From a virus, in the IMG/VR virus record IMGVR_UViG_3300021957_000160, positions 1 to 32,889 of that record: a stretch of DNA of 32,889 nt; one strand, given 5' to 3'. A program made the position numbers and the translations under genes. A model generated the notes under the pieces. The model was not told where the DNA came from. It made no database searches and saw only the letters and a list, made by a program, of their open reading frames with translations. Positions 2,012 to 26,574 of the stretch are shown here, one piece after another (the first letter of the stretch is position 1; the number at the start of each line of letters is the position of its first letter).

Positions 2012-4062
2012 TTACAGTAGTTGACGTAGAAACAACATATCAAAAAAATAAAAACAATGGATTTGATCCATCACCATTTCACCCAGATAATAAACTGGTA
2101 AGTGTTGGGTTAGAATCAAAGTTTGGTAGCGAATATTATTTCACTTATCATTCTGAAAAAGTTAGTGAAGGATGTTATGATAGTATACAAGAGAGGCTAG
2201 ACCAAACTACTTTATTGATAGGGCACAATCTTAAATTTGATTTGATGTGGTTATTAGAGGCAGGTTTTAAATACACTGGTAAAGTCTATGATACTATGAT
2301 AGGTGAATATATACTTAACAAAGGTGTTAGAAAATCTTTGACATTGCAAATGTGTTGCCAACGTAGGAAGATAGGCATGAAGGATGATCGTATAAAAGAA
2401 TACATGGATCGTGGTATATCTTTTGATAACATACCTGCTGATCTTGTTGAGGAGTATGGTAGAAATGATGTAACAATTACCAAGAGATTATTTGAGTCTC
2501 AGATGCAAGACTTTAAACTTCCTGCTAATAAAGATTTAGTCAAGACTGCTAAGATGATGGGTGAGTTTTTAGTTGTATTATCTGACATGGAACGTAATGG
2601 TATCTATGTTGATCTAAATGTTTTAGAAAAAGTAAATGCAGAGTACACTGCAGAAAAAGAATATCTAAGGCAGAAGATAGGCAAGATTGTCTATAATAAA
2701 ATGGGTGATACAGAAATAAATTTATCTAGTCCAGAACAATTATCATGGTTAATCTATTCTAAAAAACCTTTAGACAAAAATAATTGGGCCAAAATATTTA
2801 ATGTTGGTGTAGATAAATCAACAGGTAAAAACAAACGCAGACCACAGTTTTCATTAAATCAATTTAGATCTCTAGTTAAAAACAATACTGCACCTGTATA
2901 TAAAACAAGTGCAAGCAAATGTATACCTTGTGATGGTAAAGGTGTAACTAAAAGAATAAAAAAAGATGGCAGTCCATATAAAAATTATACTAAATGTTCT
3001 GACTGTGATGGTGATGGATTTATATATCACAAGATGGCTAAACTTGCAGGGTTTAATCAAGTTCCTAGAAGTGTATATGATATATCAGAGTCTGGATTTA
3101 GAACAGATAAAGTAACTCTATCTAAACTTTCAGCAGAATCTGAGGGAGAACTTAGAGAATTTTTAGATGCTATTGTAAGATACAATGCAATAGATACTTA
3201 TCTATCTACTTTTATTTCTGGTATTAAAGATCACACAGATGATCAAGGTATGCTACATCCTAAATTTATGCAGGCAGTAACTGCAACAGGTAGACTATCA
3301 AGTCGTGATCCTAATTTTCAGAATCAACCTAGAGGAAAAACATTTCCTATTAGGCAAGTTGTTAAGTCAAGATTCTCTAATGGTAAAATATTGGAGATAG
3401 ATTTCTCTCAGCTTGAATTTAGAACTGCAGTGTTTATGGCACAAGATAAACAAGGTATGGAAGATATAAAAAATAATATTGATGTGCACCAATACACTGC
3501 AGACATTATTGGAGTATCAAGGCAAGATGCTAAAGCACATACATTTAAACCTTTGTATGGGGGTGTAACAGGTACTGAAGACGAGAAGAAATACTATCGT
3601 AAGTTTTTAGAAAAGTATAAAGGCATAAAAGCATGGCATGATAAATTACAAACACATGCTATTAAATTTAAATGTATACAAATACCTACAGGTAGGCAAT
3701 ACTCATTTCCATATGCTCAGCGTATGCCTTGGGGTGGTTCTAGTTATGGTACACAAATAAAAAATTATCCTGTGCAAGGTTTTGCAACAGCAGATATTGT
3801 TCCATTAGCGTGTATAAATATTCACAATCTAATGAGGGAACAGAAAGTAAAAAGTTTACTCGTAAATACAGTTCACGATTCTATCGTAGCTGATGTTTAT
3901 CCTGGTGAAGAAAGTGTGATGGGTAAAATATTCAAGCAGGGCACAAGTAGTGTTATTGATTCATTGAAAGAATATTATAATATAGATTTCAATGTTCCAC
4001 TTGACACAGAAACAAAAATAGGATATAACTGGTTAGATATGAAGGAGGTAATAACCATATGA
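2008..4062 (+). CDS. polA: Family A DNA polymerase with 3'-5' exonuclease and DnaJ-like zinc insert
   Basis: Replicative polymerase of 684 aa. Exonuclease motifs: Exo I D6-V-E8, Exo II GHNLKFD with D78, and Exo III Y150xxxD154. Between the exonuclease and polymerase halves is a cysteine insert, C305xxC308DGKG ... C330xxC333DGDG, which matches the DnaJ central zinc repeat and the insert described for phage HMO-2011 polymerase. Polymerase motifs follow: TGRLSSRDPNFQNQPRG, motif A EIDFSQLEFR (D465), motif B R505xxxK509xxxF513xxxY517G, and motif C VHDSI (H623, D624). F513 corresponds to E. coli Phe762. Motif C carries Ser where HDE has Glu. No thioredoxin-binding loop is evident. All catalytic Asp residues are present, so I expect it to be active. 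Confidence 0.95.
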   Translation: MITVVDVETTYQKNKNNGFDPSPFHPDNKLVSVGLESKFGSEYYFTYHSEKVSEGCYDSIQERLDQTTLLIGHNLKFDLMWLLEAGFKYTGKVYDTMIGEYILNKGVRKSLTLQMCCQRRKIGMKDDRIKEYMDRGISFDNIPADLVEEYGRNDVTITKRLFESQMQDFKLPANKDLVKTAKMMGEFLVVLSDMERNGIYVDLNVLEKVNAEYTAEKEYLRQKIGKIVYNKMGDTEINLSSPEQLSWLIYSKKPLDKNNWAKIFNVGVDKSTGKNKRRPQFSLNQFRSLVKNNTAPVYKTSASKCIPCDGKGVTKRIKKDGSPYKNYTKCSDCDGDGFIYHKMAKLAGFNQVPRSVYDISESGFRTDKVTLSKLSAESEGELREFLDAIVRYNAIDTYLSTFISGIKDHTDDQGMLHPKFMQAVTATGRLSSRDPNFQNQPRGKTFPIRQVVKSRFSNGKILEIDFSQLEFRTAVFMAQDKQGMEDIKNNIDVHQYTADIIGVSRQDAKAHTFKPLYGGVTGTEDEKKYYRKFLEKYKGIKAWHDKLQTHAIKFKCIQIPTGRQYSFPYAQRMPWGGSSYGTQIKNYPVQGFATADIVPLACINIHNLMREQKVKSLLVNTVHDSIVADVYPGEESVMGKIFKQGTSSVIDSLKEYYNIDFNVPLDTETKIGYNWLDMKEVITI
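4001..4029 (+). promoter_or_regulatory. Possible sigma70-like promoter inside the end of polA
   Basis: TTGACA (4001-4006), 17-nt spacer, TATAAC (4024-4029), about 30 bases before the next gene at 4059. It lies within coding sequence and such matches arise by chance in AT-rich DNA, so confidence is low. If real it would raise expression of the three small genes downstream. Confidence 0.25.
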
Positions 4063-8970: not shown

Positions 8971-8997
8971 GGGGAGTCTTTATGGCTCCCCTTTTTT
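8971..8997 (+). terminator. Rho-independent terminator of the plus-strand operon
   Basis: GGGGAGTC (8971-8978), loop TTTAT, GGCTCCCC (8984-8991), then six T (8992-8997). It is a strong GC stem in AT-rich surroundings, 36 nt after the last plus-strand stop. Its T-run overlaps the stop codon of the convergent 801-aa gene. Confidence 0.85.
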
Positions 8998-11401
8998 ATG
9001 CAAATAATCTATCTGTTTGCTGTTTAGCTTTACTTAGTTTGATAGGCTTGCTTAGTATTTCTTTTTGTAATTTCTTTGGTAGTTTCATTTTAATAATTTC
9101 ATGAGGATATTTAATATTAAAGTTTTCACCACTAAAGTATTCAGATATATAAGAATTATAACTATTTATATCTGTGCCACCTGAAGGGATAACTGATGAT
9201 ATAGGCATTTGTAAATTAATATCTCTATTATTCCATACTCTTGCTATGTTCATTAACTCACCAGCATTAGCTTTTGTTATTGCTTTATCTATTTCACTAT
9301 CTGGTTTTACCCACATATAATAATTTTTTTCATTTTCTATATCTGGGTTATCATCAATAAGTGTATCTAAAATACTATCTCCTGCACCCCTACCTGTTTC
9401 AGTAAATATGCTTGCATAATCTGGAAGTGTGGCATTGTCAGGAAGTGGATCTCCCTCTACAGTTCCACGATTTAGACTTTCAATTGTATTTGCTAATGAA
9501 CTATAGCTAATTTTACGCAAAACAAACCCATCTCTTAATGCAGTTCGAGTTCTACGAGTTATATTTAAAGCATCTGATTCTTCTGTAGGTTCATTTAAAC
9601 CAACATCATCAAATTCTTTTAACTTACCTTTACCAGGAAGTTCAACTGTTTCTAATTTTACGTTATATTTATCTGCAATTTTTTCTAATTGTTTATATAC
9701 AATTTCATCATAAAATTTTTTTAAACCTTCTTTATCTTCCATAGGTTGACCTTCATATCTATCAAATTGTATTTGACCATTAGTTATACCTATACTATCT
9801 AAATCTTTTTCTACTGCTTTTTTTATCATAGCATTTAATATTAACTCTACATATTTTTTTGATTCAGTTATAGGTAATGGATTGTAACCTCTTAGATCTA
9901 CCTGTTTTTGTGCTTGCTCTTTTGTTTTGTAAGAACCCTTAGTAACTAAATTATTTTTATCAAAAACATAAAAGTTGTTATCCATTAATCTAACTTCAGG
10001 CACACCACGTTCATTTGTTATATCTCTTCCTGTATCTACAGAATATAAAACATTTTGATTTTCAGTAGCAAAATTTTTTGCTTCATCTAATATTTTTTTA
10101 TTAGTAGGTTCTGTATCTGTTAATCCTGCTATTGGCCCTTCTCTATCATTTTCAATTTGTCCAAATATACCACGACCAGATAATACATCTGGTTCTTTTT
10201 TAACAAGATAGTTAGGATAATTTTTTTTTAAAAAATCTTGAGTAATATCTTTACCTTTTATTATAACAAAATCATCTTTAGTTCCTTCTTGCTGTATCTT
10301 TTGTATCATATCAGATTGTATTTCATCTATGATAAAAGTATCTTCTAATTGTCTAGATGCATTTTTTAAAGTTTTATCATCGTTACTTAACTTTACACCA
10401 TCAGCTTCTTTTTTATTTAATCTTTTTTCCACAGCATCAGCATCAAAGTATCCTGTCTGTGCTCTAGCATGTCCTATAGCATTAGTTGCATATTCTTTAG
10501 CAAAATGATCAGGGTCAGCTGACCATTGCTCTGGCCCATCTACTTGAAAAACATATTGCTCTACAGTAGATTTGTATCCTTCTTGTAATTTTTGTCCAGT
10601 TGGATTAACTGCATAGTCATATGGTAAAGTACTAACAGCCCTTTTACCACCTGCACCACCAAGTGAAAAAGTTGTAAAATCATATTGATCTTCTAATGGT
10701 ACCTCAACTACACTTAGTTTATCTGCTATATTTTTTTGCTCTACAAAATCCAATAAGTCTTGTTTAGTTATAGATTCGTTACCTTGTAGATACTCTGATA
10801 ATCCTAGGTAATCCATTTCTTCTTTAGTAGAATTACTCTGTACAATACTTTTCCATTTACCTTTAGTAAATTTATTTTGTTTAGCATTCTTAATAGCATC
10901 AACAGCACGAGAATAGAACTCTGGTTTATCACCCATGAGTGCCTGTGCTGTTTGTTTTTCTGTTTCTGTTAGTGGCCCAAATTCTACTTTGGGTTCTAGT
11001 GCTTTTTGTGTTTGGGATTTAATGTCGTCTTCTTTGGATAAGTTTTTAGATATTTCTAACGCAGCTTCGGTAGCTACTTCTGTGCCAATGTTTGGCTCTT
11101 TATCTTCAGGGGGTTCCTGTTGTGGTTGGTTGGATTGATTTGGGTCTTTGACCATTGGTAAATTAGGATCATCATCATCGCTATCAGTAGATGCAAAATT
11201 AGGATTTACCATCGGTACACTATCTGCCTTAACCATAGGTGTATCAGCAGCTAATGTTTCATTTAAACTAGTAAATGCATCTTTACCATAAGTTGAAACA
11301 AACTTATTGAGTCCTAGCTTACTTAATTCTTTAGATAAGTAGGGTGCAGCAAATCTACCTACTGCTGTAATTATAGGGATTGCAAGTAATGGTGGTGCCA
11401 T
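8996..11401 (-). CDS. Large polyvalent-type protein with EIQSD domain, 801 aa
   Basis: The N-terminal about 150 residues are low-complexity (PMVKADSVPMVNPNF, Pro/Gln/Asp-rich) after a short hydrophobic start. A conserved domain follows: IIDEIQSDMIQKIQ (about residues 352-365), a block with AMIKKAVEKDLDSIGITNG (about 525-545), GLKKFYDEIVYKQL and a C-terminal KLPKKLQKEILSKP. The same order (E[IV]QSD, a xxTxGxxxxxRY segment, KxFYDxI, then a terminal beta segment) is known to me from large polyvalent proteins of phages and conjugative elements, where its biochemical role is unknown. It is the last gene before the terminator and probably a virion or injected protein; that is inference. Confidence 0.65.
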   Translation of the reverse strand: MAPPLLAIPIITAVGRFAAPYLSKELSKLGLNKFVSTYGKDAFTSLNETLAADTPMVKADSVPMVNPNFASTDSDDDDPNLPMVKDPNQSNQPQQEPPEDKEPNIGTEVATEAALEISKNLSKEDDIKSQTQKALEPKVEFGPLTETEKQTAQALMGDKPEFYSRAVDAIKNAKQNKFTKGKWKSIVQSNSTKEEMDYLGLSEYLQGNESITKQDLLDFVEQKNIADKLSVVEVPLEDQYDFTTFSLGGAGGKRAVSTLPYDYAVNPTGQKLQEGYKSTVEQYVFQVDGPEQWSADPDHFAKEYATNAIGHARAQTGYFDADAVEKRLNKKEADGVKLSNDDKTLKNASRQLEDTFIIDEIQSDMIQKIQQEGTKDDFVIIKGKDITQDFLKKNYPNYLVKKEPDVLSGRGIFGQIENDREGPIAGLTDTEPTNKKILDEAKNFATENQNVLYSVDTGRDITNERGVPEVRLMDNNFYVFDKNNLVTKGSYKTKEQAQKQVDLRGYNPLPITESKKYVELILNAMIKKAVEKDLDSIGITNGQIQFDRYEGQPMEDKEGLKKFYDEIVYKQLEKIADKYNVKLETVELPGKGKLKEFDDVGLNEPTEESDALNITRRTRTALRDGFVLRKISYSSLANTIESLNRGTVEGDPLPDNATLPDYASIFTETGRGAGDSILDTLIDDNPDIENEKNYYMWVKPDSEIDKAITKANAGELMNIARVWNNRDINLQMPISSVIPSGGTDINSYNSYISEYFSGENFNIKYPHEIIKMKLPKKLQKEILSKPIKLSKAKQQTDRLFA

Positions 11402-12398: not shown

Positions 12399-12580
12399 TA
12401 CGATTTATATCCACCACCTGCTTTCTTATATGCTTTAGCTAGTGCTTGTGCTTTTCTAGCTGACCATTTACCTGCGGCTGTGCCATGGGTATTTGCAGCT
12501 TTTATTCTATTAAAGATTTGTTTTCTTTTATTAGGTTGTGTATAGTTTCCTGCTTTATTTACTGTACTTTTATTACTCAT
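12398..12580 (-). CDS. Small basic protein, 60 aa
   Basis: STVNKAGNYTQPNKRKQIFN, then KAANTHGTAAGKWSARKAQA and LAKAYKKAGGGYKS: a Lys/Arg/Gly-rich small protein of a type that recurs in marine phage late operons. It probably binds DNA or the capsid interior; no function is known. It overlaps the 216-aa gene's end by 8 nt and shares one base with the downstream gene. Confidence 0.75.
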   Translation of the reverse strand: MSNKSTVNKAGNYTQPNKRKQIFNRIKAANTHGTAAGKWSARKAQALAKAYKKAGGGYKS

Positions 12581-13223
12581 CTTTTAACTCCTTAAAATGA
12601 TAATCGTAGCTGCCTTCCTCATGCTCATCAGTTATCCATTTAGAACTAGTCTCAACTGACCATCTTCTAGTATTAACTAATCTATTAATAAGAGGTTTCT
12701 TATCTAAATCTGTGCCCATAGATGCATCAAATACTCTTAATCTATTGTTAGGTTGTATTGCATAATTACCATCATCTAATTCTAATACATGGCCACATTT
12801 GTGTTGGTCTGGTTTTTCTGCATAACCAAAATTTAATTCGTTATAATCTCCTGGCCCCCAATCTATAGTAAATAAATATGTGCCTACTCTTTTTACTTTA
12901 CGTCTAGATATATACTGCATTTTATTACCTGATAATTCATAAAACGTAGTAACACTTACATTATAACTAAAACTATCCCACATAACTAACTCATTAAGTG
13001 GCAACTCTTTTACATTAGGCTCTTTACAGAATGCTGATATAGGTGCTCTCCACCATAGCCCACCATCTTCCATCATAAAATGAAACAATGGTACTTGATT
13101 TGGTATAGAACTAAATCCAAATATAGCACACCCAAAGTATTTATCAAAGGAATCTTTTTGATCTCTTAAATAATTACCTCTAACATAGCACTCTATGATA
13201 GGTATGTTAGCATTAAGGTACAC
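12573..13223 (-). CDS. Hypothetical late protein, 216 aa, GTG start
   Basis: The open frame begins with GTG at 13223, sharing one base with the TAG of the upstream gene (TAGTG). No ATG lies near, and the conserved-looking text starts immediately (IPIIECYVRGNYLRDQ), so GTG is the likely start. The product is aromatic-rich (FHFMMEDGGLWWRAPISAF, DWGPGDYNELNFGYAEKP) with several Cys/His and looks like a compact globular cytosolic protein. It lacks a signal peptide or membrane span. I do not recognise a functional family. Confidence 0.7.
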   Translation of the reverse strand: MYLNANIPIIECYVRGNYLRDQKDSFDKYFGCAIFGFSSIPNQVPLFHFMMEDGGLWWRAPISAFCKEPNVKELPLNELVMWDSFSYNVSVTTFYELSGNKMQYISRRKVKRVGTYLFTIDWGPGDYNELNFGYAEKPDQHKCGHVLELDDGNYAIQPNNRLRVFDASMGTDLDKKPLINRLVNTRRWSVETSSKWITDEHEEGSYDYHFKELKDE

Positions 13224-13540
13224 TAGTTTGCTAGCGGGTTAGAAGATTTAATTTTTAATTCCTCTATTTGATTTTGTAATACTTGAAGTGTTTTTTCGTT
13301 TACTAATATTTTAGTATGGCTATGCTCATTATCATGTGTATGTGATAGATCTTTATTTTCTAGAGCAGTAACTTTTTCTTCTAATACAGCTATTTGTGCA
13401 GACCAATCTGTACCACCTGCATTTTCTAATGCATCTAGTTTAGTTGTTATTTCACCATACTTTACAAAGCCACCACCTATTGCGGCAATGACACCTAGTA
13501 AAGCTGCTACACCTGCTAATTGATTTTTTATTTTATCCAT
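13223..13540 (-). CDS. Membrane-anchored coiled-coil protein, 105 aa
   Basis: One N-terminal membrane helix (GVAALLGVIAAIGGGFV), then a coiled coil (TTKLDALEN, IAVLEEKVTALENK), a His-rich stretch (HTHDNEHSH) and a second coiled coil (LQVLQNQIEELKIK). The layout resembles inner-membrane spanins, but no outer-membrane lipoprotein partner is seen, so spanin is only one possibility. The His cluster could bind metal. AGGGG precedes the ATG. Confidence 0.65.
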   Translation of the reverse strand: MDKIKNQLAGVAALLGVIAAIGGGFVKYGEITTKLDALENAGGTDWSAQIAVLEEKVTALENKDLSHTHDNEHSHTKILVNEKTLQVLQNQIEELKIKSSNPLAN

Positions 13541-13541
13541 A

Positions 13542-13697
13542 TTATATCCCCTGCATCCTTGGATCTTTTGAAGTTATATTTTTTGTTGCCTTTGGTCTGG
13601 CTATAGAAGTTTTACTTCTCTGCCTTAGCTGTGCTAGTGCTGAGTCTTTATATTTTTTCTGCTTTATTAATTTTAATAAGTCAAATTTAAAGTTCAT
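13542..13697 (-). CDS. Small basic protein, 51 aa
   Basis: ORF MNFKFDLLKLIKQKKYKDSA continuing through LAQLRQRSKTSIARP to KDPRMQGI, highly basic. AGAGG about 10 nt before the ATG supports the start. It overlaps the end of the 471-aa gene by 11 nt and ends two bases before the next start, filling what would otherwise be an unexplained gap. Possibly a virion- or membrane-associated peptide; family unknown. Confidence 0.6.
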   Translation of the reverse strand: MNFKFDLLKLIKQKKYKDSALAQLRQRSKTSIARPKATKNITSKDPRMQGI

Positions 13698-15102
13698 TTT
13701 TAAGTACCTCTAATTGTATTAACAATTGCTGTCTTTCATTTTGTAATTCATTTATTTTATTTACCTTAGTAGATATAGGATCATTAGCTACATATTTATC
13801 TAGATTTATATTAGAATATATATCTCTATTATCTGCAATACTTACCTGGTCTAGGTAAATATCTTTTGGTTTATAAAAAGGTACATTATAAGTATCTAAT
13901 ATAATATCGTTATTGGACATAGCTTTAATTTTTATTAAGTTTTTAAATTCTAAGTTTTTACCAATGTCTTTTACTTTCTCGTCTATCTTATCCATAACTT
14001 GTTGTAGCTCTAGAGACTCTGACTGTGACTTAGCATTTGCTGTTTTAGTTTTTCTCGAGTTAATTTTTTCTTGCTTAGTATCACTCTCTTTCGTAGCATC
14101 GGTAGTTTGAGTAGTTTCGCTATCGGATTCTGCTTGTTCATTTTCTGTTTGTTCATCTTCAAAACCTTCTTGCATCATTTCAGAAGTTGTTTTTTCTTCT
14201 TCTTTAGATTCTTCCTCTACTACTTCTATTATACCCTCATCCGTAGAATTGTCAATATCTTCTTTATCCTCATTTTCCTCAACAAATAGCTGCGTCATAA
14301 GTTCCATTTCAGGTTCTTCTTGCTTTTGTTCTTCTGGCATTTCCATAACCATAGGCTCTTCAAATGATGGCTCTTCTTTAAACTCTGGTTCTTCCATACC
14401 AAACTCTTCTTCTATTGCAAAGTCAGGTTCAGGTAGTGCTACAAAGTTATCTTCAAACTTTGTATCTTCAAATTTAATATTGTCTTCAGGTTTGAAGTCA
14501 TCAAACAAATCTATAATCTCCTGTTCAACAGAGTCTTCTATGAAAATAGGTTCAGATTCGTAAGTGATAGTGAGGCTTGGCTCTTTGAGATCGACACCAT
14601 AATGACCTGTAGCATTTGAAGTATCTGAGAAATCATACTGTACAGAGATACTATAGTCGGTTTCAGTATTTCTAGATACAATAAAGCTGTCAGACCCAGT
14701 GTCGAAAGAACCGCAGTTAGTATAGCCACAGCCAGTAGAGTTGTAAGTTCGTATTTGTGTCGTTGTTTCACCACTTTGTCCTGTTATTGTTATAGTCGAT
14801 TGGACAGTAGATTCATAATCATTCCAATGCCAGTATTGAAATTCATGATCTCCACTAAATCCATACTTTATCTGATCCTCTGTTAGTCCTGCATCATTTC
14901 TTAAACTTATATCGTCTGATATGATATATTCATTATTGTGAGCAGCAATAACATCAGACCCGTGGCGACCATCAGCGGTACCAGACCAGGATCCTGAATC
15001 AAAGTTTTGATTGAGTAAATTATTTGTAGTAACTTCTTCACTTTTTATGGAAGTTGTAAGGATTAATGTAATCAGCAAACTTATTAATGCTATATATTGC
15101 AT
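13687..15102 (-). CDS. Exported or membrane-anchored acidic protein, 471 aa
   Basis: Starts at ATG 15102 (AGGAG six bases upstream); an in-frame TTG at 15108 is less likely. The N-terminus MQYIALISLLITLILTTSIK is a signal peptide or anchor. Residues about 25-180 form a beta-rich domain (NQNFDSGSWSGTADGRHGSD, FQYWHWNDYES, CGYTNCGS with a Cys pair, GHYGVDLKEPSLTITY) that I recall from other marine phage proteins without a known role. About 185-330 is extremely acidic and Met/Pro-rich (Glu runs), then a Lys/Thr/Ser-rich linker, and the C-terminus is a coiled coil (INELQNERQQLLIQLEVL). A periplasmic or cell-surface role in infection or lysis is inferred. Confidence 0.75.
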   Translation of the reverse strand: MQYIALISLLITLILTTSIKSEEVTTNNLLNQNFDSGSWSGTADGRHGSDVIAAHNNEYIISDDISLRNDAGLTEDQIKYGFSGDHEFQYWHWNDYESTVQSTITITGQSGETTTQIRTYNSTGCGYTNCGSFDTGSDSFIVSRNTETDYSISVQYDFSDTSNATGHYGVDLKEPSLTITYESEPIFIEDSVEQEIIDLFDDFKPEDNIKFEDTKFEDNFVALPEPDFAIEEEFGMEEPEFKEEPSFEEPMVMEMPEEQKQEEPEMELMTQLFVEENEDKEDIDNSTDEGIIEVVEEESKEEEKTTSEMMQEGFEDEQTENEQAESDSETTQTTDATKESDTKQEKINSRKTKTANAKSQSESLELQQVMDKIDEKVKDIGKNLEFKNLIKIKAMSNNDIILDTYNVPFYKPKDIYLDQVSIADNRDIYSNINLDKYVANDPISTKVNKINELQNERQQLLIQLEVLKNEL

Positions 15103-15139
15103 AACCAACTCCTATTATTATCCCTATTAACCAAATCAT
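15038..15139 (-). CDS. Tiny membrane protein, 33 aa
   Basis: MIWLIGIIIGVGYAIYSINK plus a short polar tail: one transmembrane helix. Its ATG overlaps the stop of the 62-aa gene (ATGA), the same arrangement as the two genes before it, and it carries the ribosome site of the 471-aa gene within its own coding sequence. It overlaps the 471-aa start by 65 nt. Plausible by layout, not proven. Confidence 0.4.
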   Translation of the reverse strand: MIWLIGIIIGVGYAIYSINKFADYINPYNFHKK

Positions 15140-15324
15140 TTACTAGTTAATCTATCCATATGATTGTATATTCTACCTATTTGTTTATCAATAGACATTA
15201 TTTCTTCAGTAAGCATACCTATATGAACTTGAAGTTCTACAATTGTTATTAATACATAAGTAGATAAACCTAAAAGTATAGTGCCTAACAAAGCAATCAT
15301 AGCTGTATTAGTTTTTCTATTCAT
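15136..15324 (-). CDS. Single-span membrane protein with coiled coil, 62 aa
   Basis: Basic N-terminus (MNRKTN), one membrane helix (MIALLGTILLGLSTYVLITI) and a helical tail with heptad-like spacing (IGMLTEEIMSIDKQIGRIYN). Topology is probably N-in/C-out. ATGA overlaps join it to the 30-aa gene before and the 33-aa gene after. It could be a holin/antiholin-like or spanin-like element close to the lysis genes; no family recognised. Confidence 0.65.
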   Translation of the reverse strand: MNRKTNTAMIALLGTILLGLSTYVLITIVELQVHIGMLTEEIMSIDKQIGRIYNHMDRLTSK

Positions 15325-15413
15325 TTTTTACTTTTACTTTTTAATAACTTATTTATCCAAGAAGTTGCACTATCTATCTTACCCAAAAACTTATATATAA
15401 ATTTATCTATCAT
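15321..15413 (-). CDS. Tiny amphipathic peptide, 30 aa
   Basis: MIDKFIYKFLGKIDSATSWI followed by NKLLKSKSKK: a basic amphipathic helix. Both ends use ATGA overlaps (start with the 221-aa gene's stop, stop with the 62-aa gene's start), which is hard to explain by chance and supports translation. It may be a peripheral membrane peptide. Function unknown. Confidence 0.55.
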   Translation of the reverse strand: MIDKFIYKFLGKIDSATSWINKLLKSKSKK

Positions 15414-16075
15414 TTAGGATTAGTCCATTCTATTTTTTGTTTAGTCTTCTTATCTTCTGACTCTTTATGAATATCCATAGTTATCATTTCTTTTGTAATT
15501 TGTTTTTCTTCTTCTTTATTTTTCTTTTCTATAATTTTTAAATTCTGCACATATGTTTCATAGTCTGGTCTTAACTTATCATATTTCTTCCAAGCTGCTT
15601 TAGCTTCTTTACCAATCTTACCTTCAAATGGACATGGTGTTCCTGCCTGTTCCATAGCAAAAAAGACTCTTTCATCTTGACAAAGTATTGCAACTGCTGC
15701 AACTTTCATACCTAGACTATTCATTTCTCTAGATAATTTAATTCTTTCACAGTTCTTATCTCTAAATGATTTACCTGCTGATACACCTACACCAAAAGTT
15801 TGAATACCTGCTGATGCACCTGCAAGACAAACATCTGAACCTGAGTTAGTAACATTGGGTGCAGCTGCTGTTGGTGGTGCAGATTTCATATTCGAAGTAG
15901 AATTATTTGTAGTTGTAGTATTATTAGAACTACCACTTTGATATGTATTTGTAGCTGAACTAGTGTATCCACCAGTGATAGATGTGTTTGATCCTGATGT
16001 ATTATTTTGTGTAGTATCTGCAAAAGCAAATGCTGAGTATATGATAATTAGTAGTGTAAGTATAAGGGTTTTCAT
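15410..16075 (-). CDS. Exported protein with conserved cysteine domain, 221 aa
   Basis: Clear signal peptide MKTLILTLLIIIYSAFAFA with likely cleavage after AFA. A Ser/Thr/Asn-rich, low-complexity segment follows (about residues 22-75), then a conserved block: SDVCLAGASAGIQTFGVGVS, RDKNCERIKLSREMNSLGMK, VAILCQDERVFFAMEQAG and TPCPFEGKIG, containing four cysteines that could form two disulfides in the periplasm. The C-terminus is a charged helix. I recall similar sequences in marine phages, always without a function. It opens the chain of ATGA-coupled small genes. Confidence 0.75.
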   Translation of the reverse strand: MKTLILTLLIIIYSAFAFADTTQNNTSGSNTSITGGYTSSATNTYQSGSSNNTTTTNNSTSNMKSAPPTAAAPNVTNSGSDVCLAGASAGIQTFGVGVSAGKSFRDKNCERIKLSREMNSLGMKVAAVAILCQDERVFFAMEQAGTPCPFEGKIGKEAKAAWKKYDKLRPDYETYVQNLKIIEKKNKEEEKQITKEMITMDIHKESEDKKTKQKIEWTNPK

Positions 16076-16080
16076 AAGGG

Positions 16081-16206
16081 TTAAGTATCTTCAGTTGGTT
16101 TGCATTCACATTTTTCACAAGTACATACACCATACTCATCTGCATGAAGATCATTATCTTCTCCGCAGTGACATGGGTGGTGACATTTATTACAAATTTT
16201 TTCCAT
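16081..16206 (-). CDS. Cysteine-rich 41-aa protein, likely zinc-binding
   Basis: MEKICNKCHHPCHCGEDNDL followed by a spacer and CTCEKCEC. Eight cysteines in two clusters (5, 8, 12, 14 and 28, 30, 33, 35) plus four histidines in 41 residues indicate a zinc-ribbon-like or other metal-binding mini-protein, without a signal peptide. It starts on the stop of the 19-aa ORF (TAATG) and ends just before the 221-aa gene. No named family; partner and role unknown. Confidence 0.65.
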   Translation of the reverse strand: MEKICNKCHHPCHCGEDNDLHADEYGVCTCEKCECKPTEDT

Positions 16207-16265
16207 TATTTACTTGTGTCTTTAAAAAGCCATTCAATGTATTTGTTCCAGACTTTTTTAATCAT
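16206..16265 (-). CDS. Possible 19-aa amphipathic peptide
   Basis: MIKKVWNKYIEWLFKDTSK, a cationic amphipathic helix rich in Trp and Lys. It overlaps the end of the 73-aa gene by 8 nt and its TAA shares a base with the next ATG. Such mini-peptides appear in marine phage genomes but the length makes chance plausible. Confidence 0.35.
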   Translation of the reverse strand: MIKKVWNKYIEWLFKDTSK

Positions 16266-16479
16266 CTGTTTTATTTTTTTGATCATGGTCTTCCTCCAGT
16301 TTTTTTATTTTACTAGTTGCTGCTTCTAAATCCTGTGTTACATGTTCTAGCTTTTGTAAACATCTTTTATTGGCTGCGTCTTTACTTTTACCAGCATCCT
16401 GTAACTCGGCTACTTCTTGGCGAAGTATACGGATTTGGTCTTTATATTCGTTTATCAGTTCGAGACTGTTTTCTGACAT
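16258..16479 (-). CDS. Coiled-coil protein, 73 aa
   Basis: Almost entirely a charged helix with heptads (LINEYKDQIRILRQEVAELQ, LEHVTQDLEAATSKIKKLEE) and no membrane span or signal peptide. It starts directly after the holin stop. It may be a soluble partner of the lysis proteins or a virion component; no family assigned. Confidence 0.65.
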   Translation of the reverse strand: MSENSLELINEYKDQIRILRQEVAELQDAGKSKDAANKRCLQKLEHVTQDLEAATSKIKKLEEDHDQKNKTDD

Positions 16480-16866
16480 TTACTTTTTTCCGTTACGAAA
16501 AATTTGTGTACCCTTTATACCATAAATACTCGCCACGACAAGAATCCATAAATTTGTGAACCATGACGGGAGCTGCTGGAATTGCTCAAAGAAAACTTTT
16601 ATCTTCTCCATAGCCTGTGGATCATCTGACCATACCCCCCACGCAATCACCAAAATTGGCAGCGTGAGCACGACCAAAACGAACTCGTCTTTCCAGTCCG
16701 ATTGCCTAGCCTCTAGCAATTTTCCCTGGTACTCACTCTCCCCACGGGCCATCTTAGAAGCATGCATATGCTGTGCATCTGCCATAGCCATCTTTGTTTC
16801 TTGTTTCTTTTTATAAATATGCGTTGCCGCATTTAATCCTAATTTAAGAGCACTAAACCACATCAT
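16480..16866 (-). CDS. Holin-like membrane protein, about 128 aa
   Basis: A basic amphipathic N-terminus (KLGLNAATHIYKKKQETKMA) leads to DWKDEFVLVVLTLPILVIAW, a short loop with SDDPQAMEKIKVFFEQFQQL, and a second span (FTNLWILVVASIYGIKGTQI), ending RNGKK. The WKDE-span-loop-span pattern matches holins I know from marine phages, which would form the pore releasing the amidase. The start is ATG 16866 or 16863 behind GGAG; a longer frame to 16920 lies inside the amidase and is rejected. Bases 16561-16800 are about half G+C against about 30 % on each side, suggesting recent acquisition. Confidence 0.7.
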   Translation of the reverse strand: MMWFSALKLGLNAATHIYKKKQETKMAMADAQHMHASKMARGESEYQGKLLEARQSDWKDEFVLVVLTLPILVIAWGVWSDDPQAMEKIKVFFEQFQQLPSWFTNLWILVVASIYGIKGTQIFRNGKK

Positions 16867-17284
16867 TTTTCTCCAACCATTTTGGTACATCAAATGATGG
16901 ACATTTTTTTCTGTCATCAATTTGATAGTGACCTATTATTTTTTCTATATCATATTTATCTTTTAATTTTAATATGATACTTTTCAATGTTTCAAATTGT
17001 ATAGGTGCAAAGTTCTCTTCCCATTTACCATTACTATCTGAACCACCAATTAAACATACGCCTATAGATGTGCCATTAACTGCTCTAGCATGCGAGCCTA
17101 CCATAGCTTCATCTCTACCTATCTCTAACGTTCCGTCTCTACGAATAACGTAGTGATAACCTATGTCATCCCATCCGTTATCGTCAACGTGCCATTTTCT
17201 TATTTTGTCTACACCTATATCCATATTACTTGGTGTAGCAGAACAGTGTATTACTATTGTATCTGTACTATCTCTCTCTATCAT
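16853..17284 (-). CDS. N-acetylmuramoyl-L-alanine amidase, T7 lysozyme type
   Basis: Endolysin of 143 aa that cleaves the amide bond between MurNAc and L-Ala. It aligns closely with T7 lysozyme: IVIHCSAT (zinc ligand H13), GYHYVIRRDG (Y43, counterpart of T7 Tyr46), SIGVCLIGG, GHYQ (H119) and K126-K-C128-PSFD (K128 and C130 of T7). All zinc and catalytic positions are kept. The N-terminal extension that T7 lysozyme uses towards T7 RNA polymerase is shorter here, and no phage RNA polymerase is seen in the window. It lies between a XhlA-like membrane protein and the holin. Confidence 0.93.
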   Translation of the reverse strand: MIERDSTDTIVIHCSATPSNMDIGVDKIRKWHVDDNGWDDIGYHYVIRRDGTLEIGRDEAMVGSHARAVNGTSIGVCLIGGSDSNGKWEENFAPIQFETLKSIILKLKDKYDIEKIIGHYQIDDRKKCPSFDVPKWLEKNDVV

Positions 17285-17496
17285 TTTAATAATCCTACTA
17301 GTGTTGCTATGATTGCCCCTAACCCACCCAATATTACATACAGTAGCTTATCTACCTTTTCATGTAACTTATCCACATCTTGATGTAAATGCTTAAGATG
17401 ATTATTTTTTATAATATTTATTTCTCTTTTTAAACCTGTTATATAACCATACATTGATATTAAATGTTCGCTGGTTGTTCTAGGTTTCTTAGCCAT
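17281..17496 (-). CDS. XhlA-like membrane protein, 71 aa
   Basis: A basic start (MAKKPRTTSEHLISMYGYIT), a coiled coil (LKHLHQDVDKLHEKVDKL) and a C-terminal membrane helix (LYVILGGLGAIIATLVGLL). This layout matches haemolysin XhlA-type proteins which sit beside amidases in phage lysis cassettes and assist holin action. The stop overlaps the amidase start by 4 bases. A holin partner role is inferred. Confidence 0.7.
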   Translation of the reverse strand: MAKKPRTTSEHLISMYGYITGLKREINIIKNNHLKHLHQDVDKLHEKVDKLLYVILGGLGAIIATLVGLLK

Positions 17497-24720: not shown

Positions 24721-25341
24721 TTAAGCAATACCATAAAGACAAATATCTCCAGCGTCTATGTTTCCGCTAGACATTTTAAATTGAATAGCATCTACTGCTG
24801 AAGTAGTATTTCCATATCCAGCTACATAAGTTGATAAATTGTAATCTTGATGTTGATATTCTGAACTTTTAAATAAAAAATGTTTAACAAATGTAGTTGA
24901 AGATGGATTAAATAAACTCATTGTTCCTACAAAACATTCGTCATTTTCATTTCCTGTATTTTCTGTTAATTGTTGAAATGAAGTTGATTGTGCTAAATCA
25001 TAACTAGCTTCATATATTAGCCCACTAGCTGAACCAGCCTCATTATGATAGGCTTTAAAATATGTGGTTGTCTTAGTTATATTATAGTTACTGCCGCTAT
25101 CTGAACTCATGTTAAATTGTAAAGACACACTATTAGTTTGTGGGTGTATGTTATTAAATGTAAATAAATACTCTTTATAGGTAGAATCTAATACAACACT
25201 ACTTGCCCCATCAACAAAAGATAAAGTAGCAGAAGATGATGCTGTTAGTTTTTTAATAAATACCATACTGCCTAAACTTGATATAGAACCAAATTCTGTT
25301 GCGTTTTTTACAGCTTGATTATTTAATTTAATGATAGACAT
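24721..25341 (-). CDS. Tail-appendage beta-sandwich paralogue 3, 206 aa
   Basis: Last of three tandem paralogues. Shared blocks: LTASSSATLSFVDGASSVVL, the NIHPQTNSVSLQFNMSSDSG strand pair, NPSSTTFVKHFLF, GYGNTTSAVDAIQFKMSSGN and a terminal I(D/T)xGxIxLYGI. The architecture (repeated beta strands ending in GNIDxGxIxLYG) is common in marine phage and virus surface proteins and probably forms a trimeric or decorating receptor-contact domain. AAAGGA precedes the ATG. Function inferred from location and composition. Confidence 0.7.
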   Translation of the reverse strand: MSIIKLNNQAVKNATEFGSISSLGSMVFIKKLTASSSATLSFVDGASSVVLDSTYKEYLFTFNNIHPQTNSVSLQFNMSSDSGSNYNITKTTTYFKAYHNEAGSASGLIYEASYDLAQSTSFQQLTENTGNENDECFVGTMSLFNPSSTTFVKHFLFKSSEYQHQDYNLSTYVAGYGNTTSAVDAIQFKMSSGNIDAGDICLYGIA

Positions 25342-25342
25342 A

Positions 25343-25969
25343 TTATGAATCCTTTATTCCATATAGTTTTATTGTGCCAGAATCTATGTTGCCTGATGCA
25401 AAATTAAACCTAATAGCATCTACAGGACTTGTAGTATTTCCATAACCTGCACCGAACCAATTATAAATAGTTCCATCAGAATCTCCTCTAGTTGTATGTG
25501 TTTGAGATATAAAATGCTTAACAAATGTGCTTGAACTAGGATTGAAAATCATCATAGAACCAGAACAACTAGAACTACTTGCATTTCCTGTAACTGTATT
25601 TAAAACTGCATCTCCTGTATCTTGAGCCAAATCTGAGCCTGTATCATAAGCTAAATTACTAGAGCCTAAATCATCATGTATTGCATAAAATGTAGTTGTA
25701 GTTTTAGTAACATTGTAGTTAGAACCACTATCTGTACTCATATTAAATTGAAATTTAACAGTGTTATTAGCTGGGTGGCAGTTAATAAACTCAAACTTAT
25801 AAATAGGATATGTGCTATCCAAAACAACATCTGAACTTCCATCTACGAATGACAATGTAGCACTAGAACTAGCAGTTAAAGTTTTAATATGTGTTAATGC
25901 TCCACTTGGCATTGAAGCAGTAGAGGTTATAGCACTTATACTATTGTCGTTATACTTAACTAATGCCAT
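25343..25969 (-). CDS. Tail-appendage beta-sandwich paralogue 2, 208 aa
   Basis: Middle paralogue of the three. It keeps LTASSSATLSFVDGSSDVVL, NMSTDSGSNYNVTKTTTTF, FNPSSSTFVKHFI and YGNTTSPVDAIRFNFASGN, but differs between these blocks (DDLGSSNLAYDTGSD, TTRGDSDGTIYNWFG), which suggests diversified surface loops on a fixed frame. It starts on the stop of the upstream copy (TAATG). Role in host contact is inferred. Confidence 0.7.
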   Translation of the reverse strand: MALVKYNDNSISAITSTASMPSGALTHIKTLTASSSATLSFVDGSSDVVLDSTYPIYKFEFINCHPANNTVKFQFNMSTDSGSNYNVTKTTTTFYAIHDDLGSSNLAYDTGSDLAQDTGDAVLNTVTGNASSSSCSGSMMIFNPSSSTFVKHFISQTHTTRGDSDGTIYNWFGAGYGNTTSPVDAIRFNFASGNIDSGTIKLYGIKDS

Positions 25970-26574
25970 TATCCTACTCCATACATTTTAATTGTTCCAC
26001 TATCTATGTTGCCTGTACTAAAATTAAATTTTATTCCATTAATAGCACTTGTAGTATTTGCATATCCACCAACAAAATTATCATTTGCCATTGGAAAATC
26101 ATGGCTACTAGATATTCTGCTTATAAAATGCTTTACAAATGTTGTACTTGATGGATTAAATAATTGAAAAGTACCACATAAATTTTCATCATTATCATTA
26201 CCAACAGCACCTATTAAATCTGCTGGATATGATTGAGCAACATCTAACGCAGTTTCATATTGTAATTGTGCATATGAAGTATCATCTTCAGAATGAATAG
26301 CATTAAAGAATGTAGTCGTCATATTAACAGTATATGTAGAACCACCATCTGTACTAAATTGAAATTTTAAATTTCTTCCATCATTTTGTGGGTGTAAGTT
26401 TATAAACTTAAACACATAAGAATCATAAGTTGAATCTATCCCAGATGTAAAATCTATTGTAGCTGAACTAGATGCAGTTTGCTCTGAGATTAAAGTCATA
26501 GCACCACCAGAAATAGATGCTGGTAGAGTTGTTATTGCTGATAAGGAGTTGTTGTTAGCAAAGTTTAGAGCCAT
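25969..26574 (-). CDS. Tail-appendage beta-sandwich paralogue 1, 201 aa
   Basis: First copy in transcription order, and the most divergent N-terminally (LISEQTASSSATIDFTSGID). It retains FINLHPQNDGRNLKFQFSTD, FNPSSTTFVKHFISR, GYANTTSAINGIKFNFSTGN and IDSGTIKMYGV. It lies next to the chaperone-like 99-aa gene. Likely a fibre-tip or decoration protein; the exact structural position cannot be told from sequence. Confidence 0.7.
   Translation of the reverse strand: MALNFANNNSLSAITTLPASISGGAMTLISEQTASSSATIDFTSGIDSTYDSYVFKFINLHPQNDGRNLKFQFSTDGGSTYTVNMTTTFFNAIHSEDDTSYAQLQYETALDVAQSYPADLIGAVGNDNDENLCGTFQLFNPSSTTFVKHFISRISSSHDFPMANDNFVGGYANTTSAINGIKFNFSTGNIDSGTIKMYGVG

Follow-up and report, generated by a model that had tools for sequence, protein, structure and literature searches.

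A conserved A-B-C gene cassette near the lysis genes of marine, mostly SAR11 phages as a candidate spanin-like module

The A-B-C locus and its distribution

The virus record IMGVR_UViG_3300021957_000160 of IMG/VR was analyzed over its entire 32,889 bases (hereafter the window, which is possibly part of a longer genome). Its source phage is podovirus-like and related to isolates infecting SAR11, the ocean's most abundant bacteria. Close to its lysis genes, the minus strand carries three genes, here called A, B and C, of which A and B are predicted to encode exported proteins and C an inner-membrane protein, in keeping with the envelope targeting proposed for this region by a sequence-only reading of the window. 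We consider A-B-C a candidate late, spanin-like module for disruption of the outer membrane, with C as its inner-membrane spanin (i-spanin) part, and assign this interpretation a probability of about one half.

15410..16075, minus strand: gene A, 221 residues; signal peptide, Asn/Ser/Thr-rich segment, four-Cys domain, long C-terminal helix
13687..15102, minus strand: gene B, 471 residues; signal peptide, beta-sandwich, acidic disordered linker, helical C-terminus
13223..13540, minus strand: gene C, 105 residues; N-terminal membrane span, periplasmic coiled coil with a His-rich stretch, C-terminal NPL

Comparison of gene order among relatives, which the sequence-only reading had suggested, revealed that the three genes are conserved together: the order A-B-C on the same strand was found in 89 of the 99 loci that contain A and more than 3.5 kilobases (kb) downstream of it. 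The remaining ten, which do not have both B and C, comprise distant metagenomic contigs and loci of isolated phages whose B and C are divergent or have been replaced (CRP-207, CRP-810, ctXG6705 and JWAlpha among them). Genes B and C usually overlap. A relative of A is encoded in at least 596 IMG/VR stretches (596 of the 600 listed matches of one pattern scan). The GenBank phages with A comprise HTVC023P, HTVC033P, Mosig, Baldr, HTVC202P and HTVC115P together with a Votkovvirus, two roseophages and freshwater phages; phages of Achromobacter and Agrobacterium and phages from wastewater have remoter relatives. A JWAlpha note points to Ralstonia phage RSL1, but this link was not reproduced. The trio is present in otherwise unrelated phages (HTVC023P, HTVC033P, the T4-like Mosig, Baldr, HTVC202P and the Votkovvirus), HTVC115P carries genes that resemble B and C at weak scores, and the carriers of A-B-C amount to hundreds of marine phages, chiefly those of SAR11.

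Searches against Pfam, PHROGs and PDB sequence profiles placed neither A nor B in a named family; for C they gave either weak matches or coiled-coil families. The open-access literature that was searched holds no description of the cassette, and the earlier statement that no named system accounts for it stands for these databases and papers.

Predicted architecture of A, B and C

Signal peptides and topology of the cassette proteins were judged by eye rather than with a dedicated predictor. In A, the predicted signal peptide is followed by a stretch rich in Asn, Ser and Thr (residues 19-79) that is predicted to be disordered, by a beta-hairpin (residues 84-105) modelled at low confidence, and by helices including the long C-terminal one. 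Both alignments show C83, C109 and C132 without exception and C148 almost without exception, and these residues may form disulphides; comparison of the model with PDB folds gave no match. Conservation of the Asn/Ser/Thr-rich segment and its loose resemblance to curlin, together with the curli genes that pelagiphages carry elsewhere (PMC9599517), would suit an extracellular fibre or adhesin akin to phage curli (type VIII secretion system, T8SS) that aggregates cells after export. We regard such a role as highly improbable, as the helical domain with the four Cys does not resemble curlin repeats, and a curli identity was rejected because no CsgG/CsgF-type family appeared among the Pfam and PHROG matches of the cassette genes and the neighbours searched. 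Coating of virions, which had also been raised for this region, is unlikely and a virion-protein role was rejected, because A and B bear signal peptides whereas virions assemble in the cytoplasm.

In the AlphaFold2 model of B, residues 23-182 form a beta-sandwich (predicted local distance difference test, pLDDT, mostly above 90), for which Foldseek found the Fbs1 sugar-binding domain, CBM22, CBM16 and CBM61 (E values 1.5e-7 to 1e-4, sequence identity about 7-17%). The modelled N-terminal domain has a CBM-type fold and may bind glycans; at the sequence level, one of the 33 B members matched CBM_4_9, weakly (0.0089). The sandwich is followed by an acidic linker of about 150 residues (208-357), predicted to be disordered, and by a helical tail. 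An in-frame TTG at 15108 offers an alternative start that would lengthen B to 473 residues.

The window and one of its close relatives (locus L007) share 86% identity in A, 97% in C and 83% in the tail of B, against 37% in the N-terminal domain of B, and this domain looks as if it had been exchanged between close relatives. The ratio of nonsynonymous to synonymous polymorphism (pN/pS) is below 1 for every cassette gene and high for B (0.70). Variation of the B head independently of A, C and the B C-terminus speaks most strongly for superinfection block or envelope remodelling, in which A and B would be exported late to coat or alter the host surface and the head would bind host or phage glycans; the glycan-binding-like fold and the high pN/pS of B point the same way. 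The cassette, however, prefers the lysis region over an early or accessory region, and A and B have no recognised outer-membrane anchor or surface export route, so that we consider this alternative unlikely.

An alignment of 43 distinct C sequences, with topology assigned by inspection, showed one N-terminal span preceded by Lys, a coiled coil behind the span, and the motif NPL at the very C-terminus, invariant in all 43. C is thus predicted to have the topology of an i-spanin, i.e., of a type II inner-membrane protein with a periplasmic coiled coil.

Lysis genes and small genes around the cassette

The proximity to lysis genes noted in the window extends to its relatives. Lysis genes were counted in 30 non-redundant loci whose flanks extend over 4 kb or more upstream and 3 kb or more downstream. 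An endolysin lies within 4.5 kb of the cassette in 23 of them, and an endolysin or holin in 25, whereas neither was found in any of 19 helicase-anchored control loci (9-13 kb). If a single endolysin placed at random came to lie within range in 31% of cases, 23 or more of 30 would have a probability of 3e-7, a guide value since the loci are not independent. The endolysins nearby belong to at least three unrelated classes (amidase, M15 peptidase and GH24 lysozyme), in addition to an HTVC033P-type protein annotated as amidase; the M15 peptidase gene frequently adjoins C, the commonest PHROG downstream of the cassette is the endolysin family PHROG 894 (11 proteins), and the holin-like PHROG 2524 of the window occurs near the cassette in further loci too. 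In the Votkovvirus, a tail fibre gene and other genes are followed, in this order, by an XhlA-like gene, a holin, A, B, C, two small genes and the large terminase (TerL), and in Baldr and HTVC202P the cassette abuts the large terminase, with C just before TerL.

The same neighbourhood also speaks for a control of lysis timing. The B head and the C coiled coil would then hold or gate the holin or endolysin (as an antiholin or in lysis inhibition), with A as a periplasmic sensor, for which the glycan-binding-like fold of B and the general plan of soluble exported A and B, akin to that of periplasmic regulators, can also be cited. Yet a specific inhibitor would need to fit all of the several non-homologous endolysins and holins that accompany the cassette, and the endolysin genes of HTVC202P and Baldr are remote from it; we judge timing control to be rather unlikely.

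In the window, the minus-strand order begins with a 71-residue XhlA-like protein, the amidase endolysin, a holin-like protein, a 73-residue coiled coil, a 19/26-residue peptide and a 41-residue Cys/His protein, and continues with A, g30, g62, g33, B, g51, C and a 216-residue protein. All open reading frames (ORFs) named by the sequence-only reading are present where it had placed them.

17281..17496, minus strand: 71-residue protein with a C-terminal membrane span; XhlA/haemolysin-like holin candidate (weak match to PHROG 1193, E 0.084)
16853..17284, minus strand: endolysin, amidase (PHROG 822, 1.3e-59)
16480..16850, minus strand: membrane protein resembling holins (PHROG 2524), with an uncertain start codon
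16258..16479, minus strand: g73, 73-residue coiled coil
16206..16265, minus strand: 19-residue amphipathic ORF, 26 residues if the in-frame ATG at 16286 is used
16081..16206, minus strand: g41, 41-residue Cys/His-rich microprotein upstream of A
15321..15413, minus strand: g30, 30-residue cationic amphipathic peptide, ATGA overlap with A
15136..15324, minus strand: g62, 62-residue one-span protein (PHROG 33111)
15038..15139, minus strand: g33, 33-residue microprotein with one span and a conserved NPYNF motif; its gene overlaps the B start in a different frame
13542..13697, minus strand: g51, 51-residue basic protein between B and C
12573..13223, minus strand: 216-residue protein flanking the cassette (PHROG 3704)

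The ATGA overlaps at 15413, 15324 and 15139 proved exact, and a further overlap (TAATG at 16206) joins the 19-residue ORF to g41. Scans for consensus promoters and terminators gave site numbers not above those of shuffled sequences. Selection on the small ORFs, for which the sequence-only reading had proposed a check, was evident among homologues (pN/pS 0.30 for g73, 0.52 for g41, 0.60 for g30, 0.51 for g62, 0.57 for g33 and 0.24 for g51), and this range of 0.24-0.60 shows that they are non-random and more than chance ORFs.

Occurrence was counted over the 137 loci that hold A and B. The one widespread micro-gene is g33 (52 loci), which always lies within the A-B gap and overlaps the start of B in all but one; its NPYNF motif is kept across 41 distinct sequences. 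This constraint could be attributed in part to the overlap with B, yet the B signal peptide varies there while NPYNF does not. Conserved in 39 loci, mostly directly upstream of A, g41 looks from its sequence like a metal-binding microprotein, and g73 was found in 25. The others are lineage-specific: g30 (24 loci), g62 (15 loci; in the A-B gap in the window and Baldr, behind C in locus L051) and g51 (10 loci; confined to close relatives and HTVC023P). The micro-genes are thus real and mostly lineage-specific insertions around A-B-C, and the earlier view of a ten-gene chain acting as one unit gives way to a core of three genes that stays together.

Since disruptins are short amphipathic peptides serving in place of spanins (PMC12819732), the small peptides themselves deserve consideration. 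The 30 residues of g30 include eight Lys and two Asp, and g30 and the 19/26-residue ORF have a disruptin-like composition; the two could break the outer membrane while A-B-C do something else. With homologues of g30 in just 24 of the 137 loci, such peptides cannot account for the conserved trio, and we hold this explanation to be improbable.

The 216-residue protein (PHROG 3704), whose strong conservation shows in a pN/pS of 0.24, stands at one end or the other of the cassette in 94 of the 137 loci. PHROG 3704 carries the label 'ferredoxin', and the HTVC023P relative of the protein is labelled PurM. Elsewhere in the window, three proteins of about 200 residues, apparently paralogous, are encoded in tandem (24721-26574) close to other tail-fibre-like genes, and an 801-residue protein (8996-11401) has no PHROG match.

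Proposed function and comparison with known systems

In CRP-207, CRP-810 and ct7L0027, a lipoprotein of 71-86 residues is encoded directly upstream of A, preceded in CRP-810 and ct7L0027 by an overlapping gene for an 80-residue membrane coiled coil. A hidden Markov model built from the three lipoproteins was compared with all ORFs; apart from the lipoproteins themselves, its best matches were proteins of the A family (E values 1e-5 to 1e-3), and a profile of A built without roseophages matched two of the three (E about 0.01). By these profile comparisons, the three lipoproteins are short paralogues of the Cys domain of A. Two roseophage genes labelled lysozyme in GenBank, CRP-207 gp73 (3292-3873 of locus L089) and CRP-810 gp51 (6168-6590 of L091), encode proteins that nonetheless have one span and a coiled coil ending in NPL/NPLGR; they are probably C-like and mis-annotated. 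In Baldr, an annotated 39-residue coding sequence (5344-5562 of L178) corresponds to an internal start of a 72-residue ORF that opens with a lipoprotein signal; tried as a spanin candidate, this ORF was discarded, being not spanin-like on inspection and far from the cassette.

The spanin-like role is favoured by the combination of gene location, topology and the lipoprotein paralogue. A-B-C would open the outer membrane after the holin and endolysin have acted. C, anchored in the inner membrane, would extend its coiled coil into the periplasm in the manner of an i-spanin. A and B would be exported to the periplasm, where B could cross the space by its acidic linker and use its beta-sandwich to grip a glycan of the envelope. 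The partner on the outer-membrane side may be A, held together by disulphides. Once the cell wall is cut, the complex of the three would contact or draw together both membranes, and the outer membrane would fail.

Several observations weigh against this role. A lipobox ORF is absent from all frames of the window, although the same scan detected the control, T7 18.7, and the outer-membrane anchor is therefore missing; the pelagiphages HTVC010P and HTVC011P, which are free of A-B-C, likewise gave no credible outer-membrane spanin in the lipobox scan. Since these phages lack spanins as well, the absence of spanins is no evidence for A-B-C, and missing spanins were dropped as proof of its role. 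Of 43 C homologues, four weakly match the Rz-like spanin family PHROG 739 (best 2.8e-4), which counts in favour of the role, and one matches PHROG 8821 (0.0089), but these matches may stem from coiled-coil composition. The helicase control loci all come from one phage lineage, the endolysin is distant from the cassette in HTVC202P and Baldr, and none was found near it in the stretches of Mosig examined. Finally, a swapped N-terminal domain of B suits recognition more readily than it does a generic rupture of membranes.

A more far-reaching version of the spanin-like role is tentative: A-B-C might be an undescribed rupture machine, in which a glycan-gripping, periplasm-spanning B and a disulphide-bonded A with a small-residue beta-hairpin act with C in place of a lipoprotein-based spanin, and which would be the usual exit route of many SAR11 phages.

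About 13% of surveyed phages have no identifiable spanin, approximately one fifth of these being cyanophages, and how they get through the outer membrane has yet to be explained (PMC6139136, PMC12819732). A-B-C provides a concrete candidate for this missing step, and one that an E. coli assay already in use could test. Possible functions also emerge for proteins now called hypothetical, and the cassette recasts the two roseophage 'lysozymes' as probable C-like membrane proteins.

Among known systems, the pelagiphage T8SS/curli module resembles the cassette in having adjacent genes for exported envelope proteins and in being common to several SAR11 phage families, but no CsgG, CsgF, CsgA/B, FecR, kinase or cyclase was identified here, and the cassette consists of other proteins, mostly located with lysis genes. 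The disruptin of phage phiKT is comparable as a candidate spanin substitute, and small cationic amphipathic peptides occur in the gene chain, but the core of the cassette is three larger exported or membrane proteins and the peptides are optional. CBM-type domains are alike in fold, whereas the sandwich of B is fused to a linker and a helical tail. We know of no spanin counterpart for a 471-residue protein with a glycan-binding-like domain and a long acidic linker.

The two-component spanins (lambda Rz/Rz1, T7 18.5/18.7, T4 PseT.3/PseT.2) differ in having two proteins against a core of three; because the window has no lipobox protein, the defining outer-membrane lipoprotein, the cassette was not classified as a formal spanin. 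The sequence-only reading's statement that no known spanin pair accounts for the locus therefore holds in the strict sense. It does not extend to the parts, since C is predicted to have i-spanin topology and three relatives carry a lipoprotein form of the Cys domain of A. Like the two-component spanins, the cassette combines an inner-membrane coiled-coil protein (C) and conserved Cys residues in the presumed outer-membrane-side partner with a location in the lysis cassette or before the terminase, the place in Baldr and HTVC202P being that of the T7 spanins.

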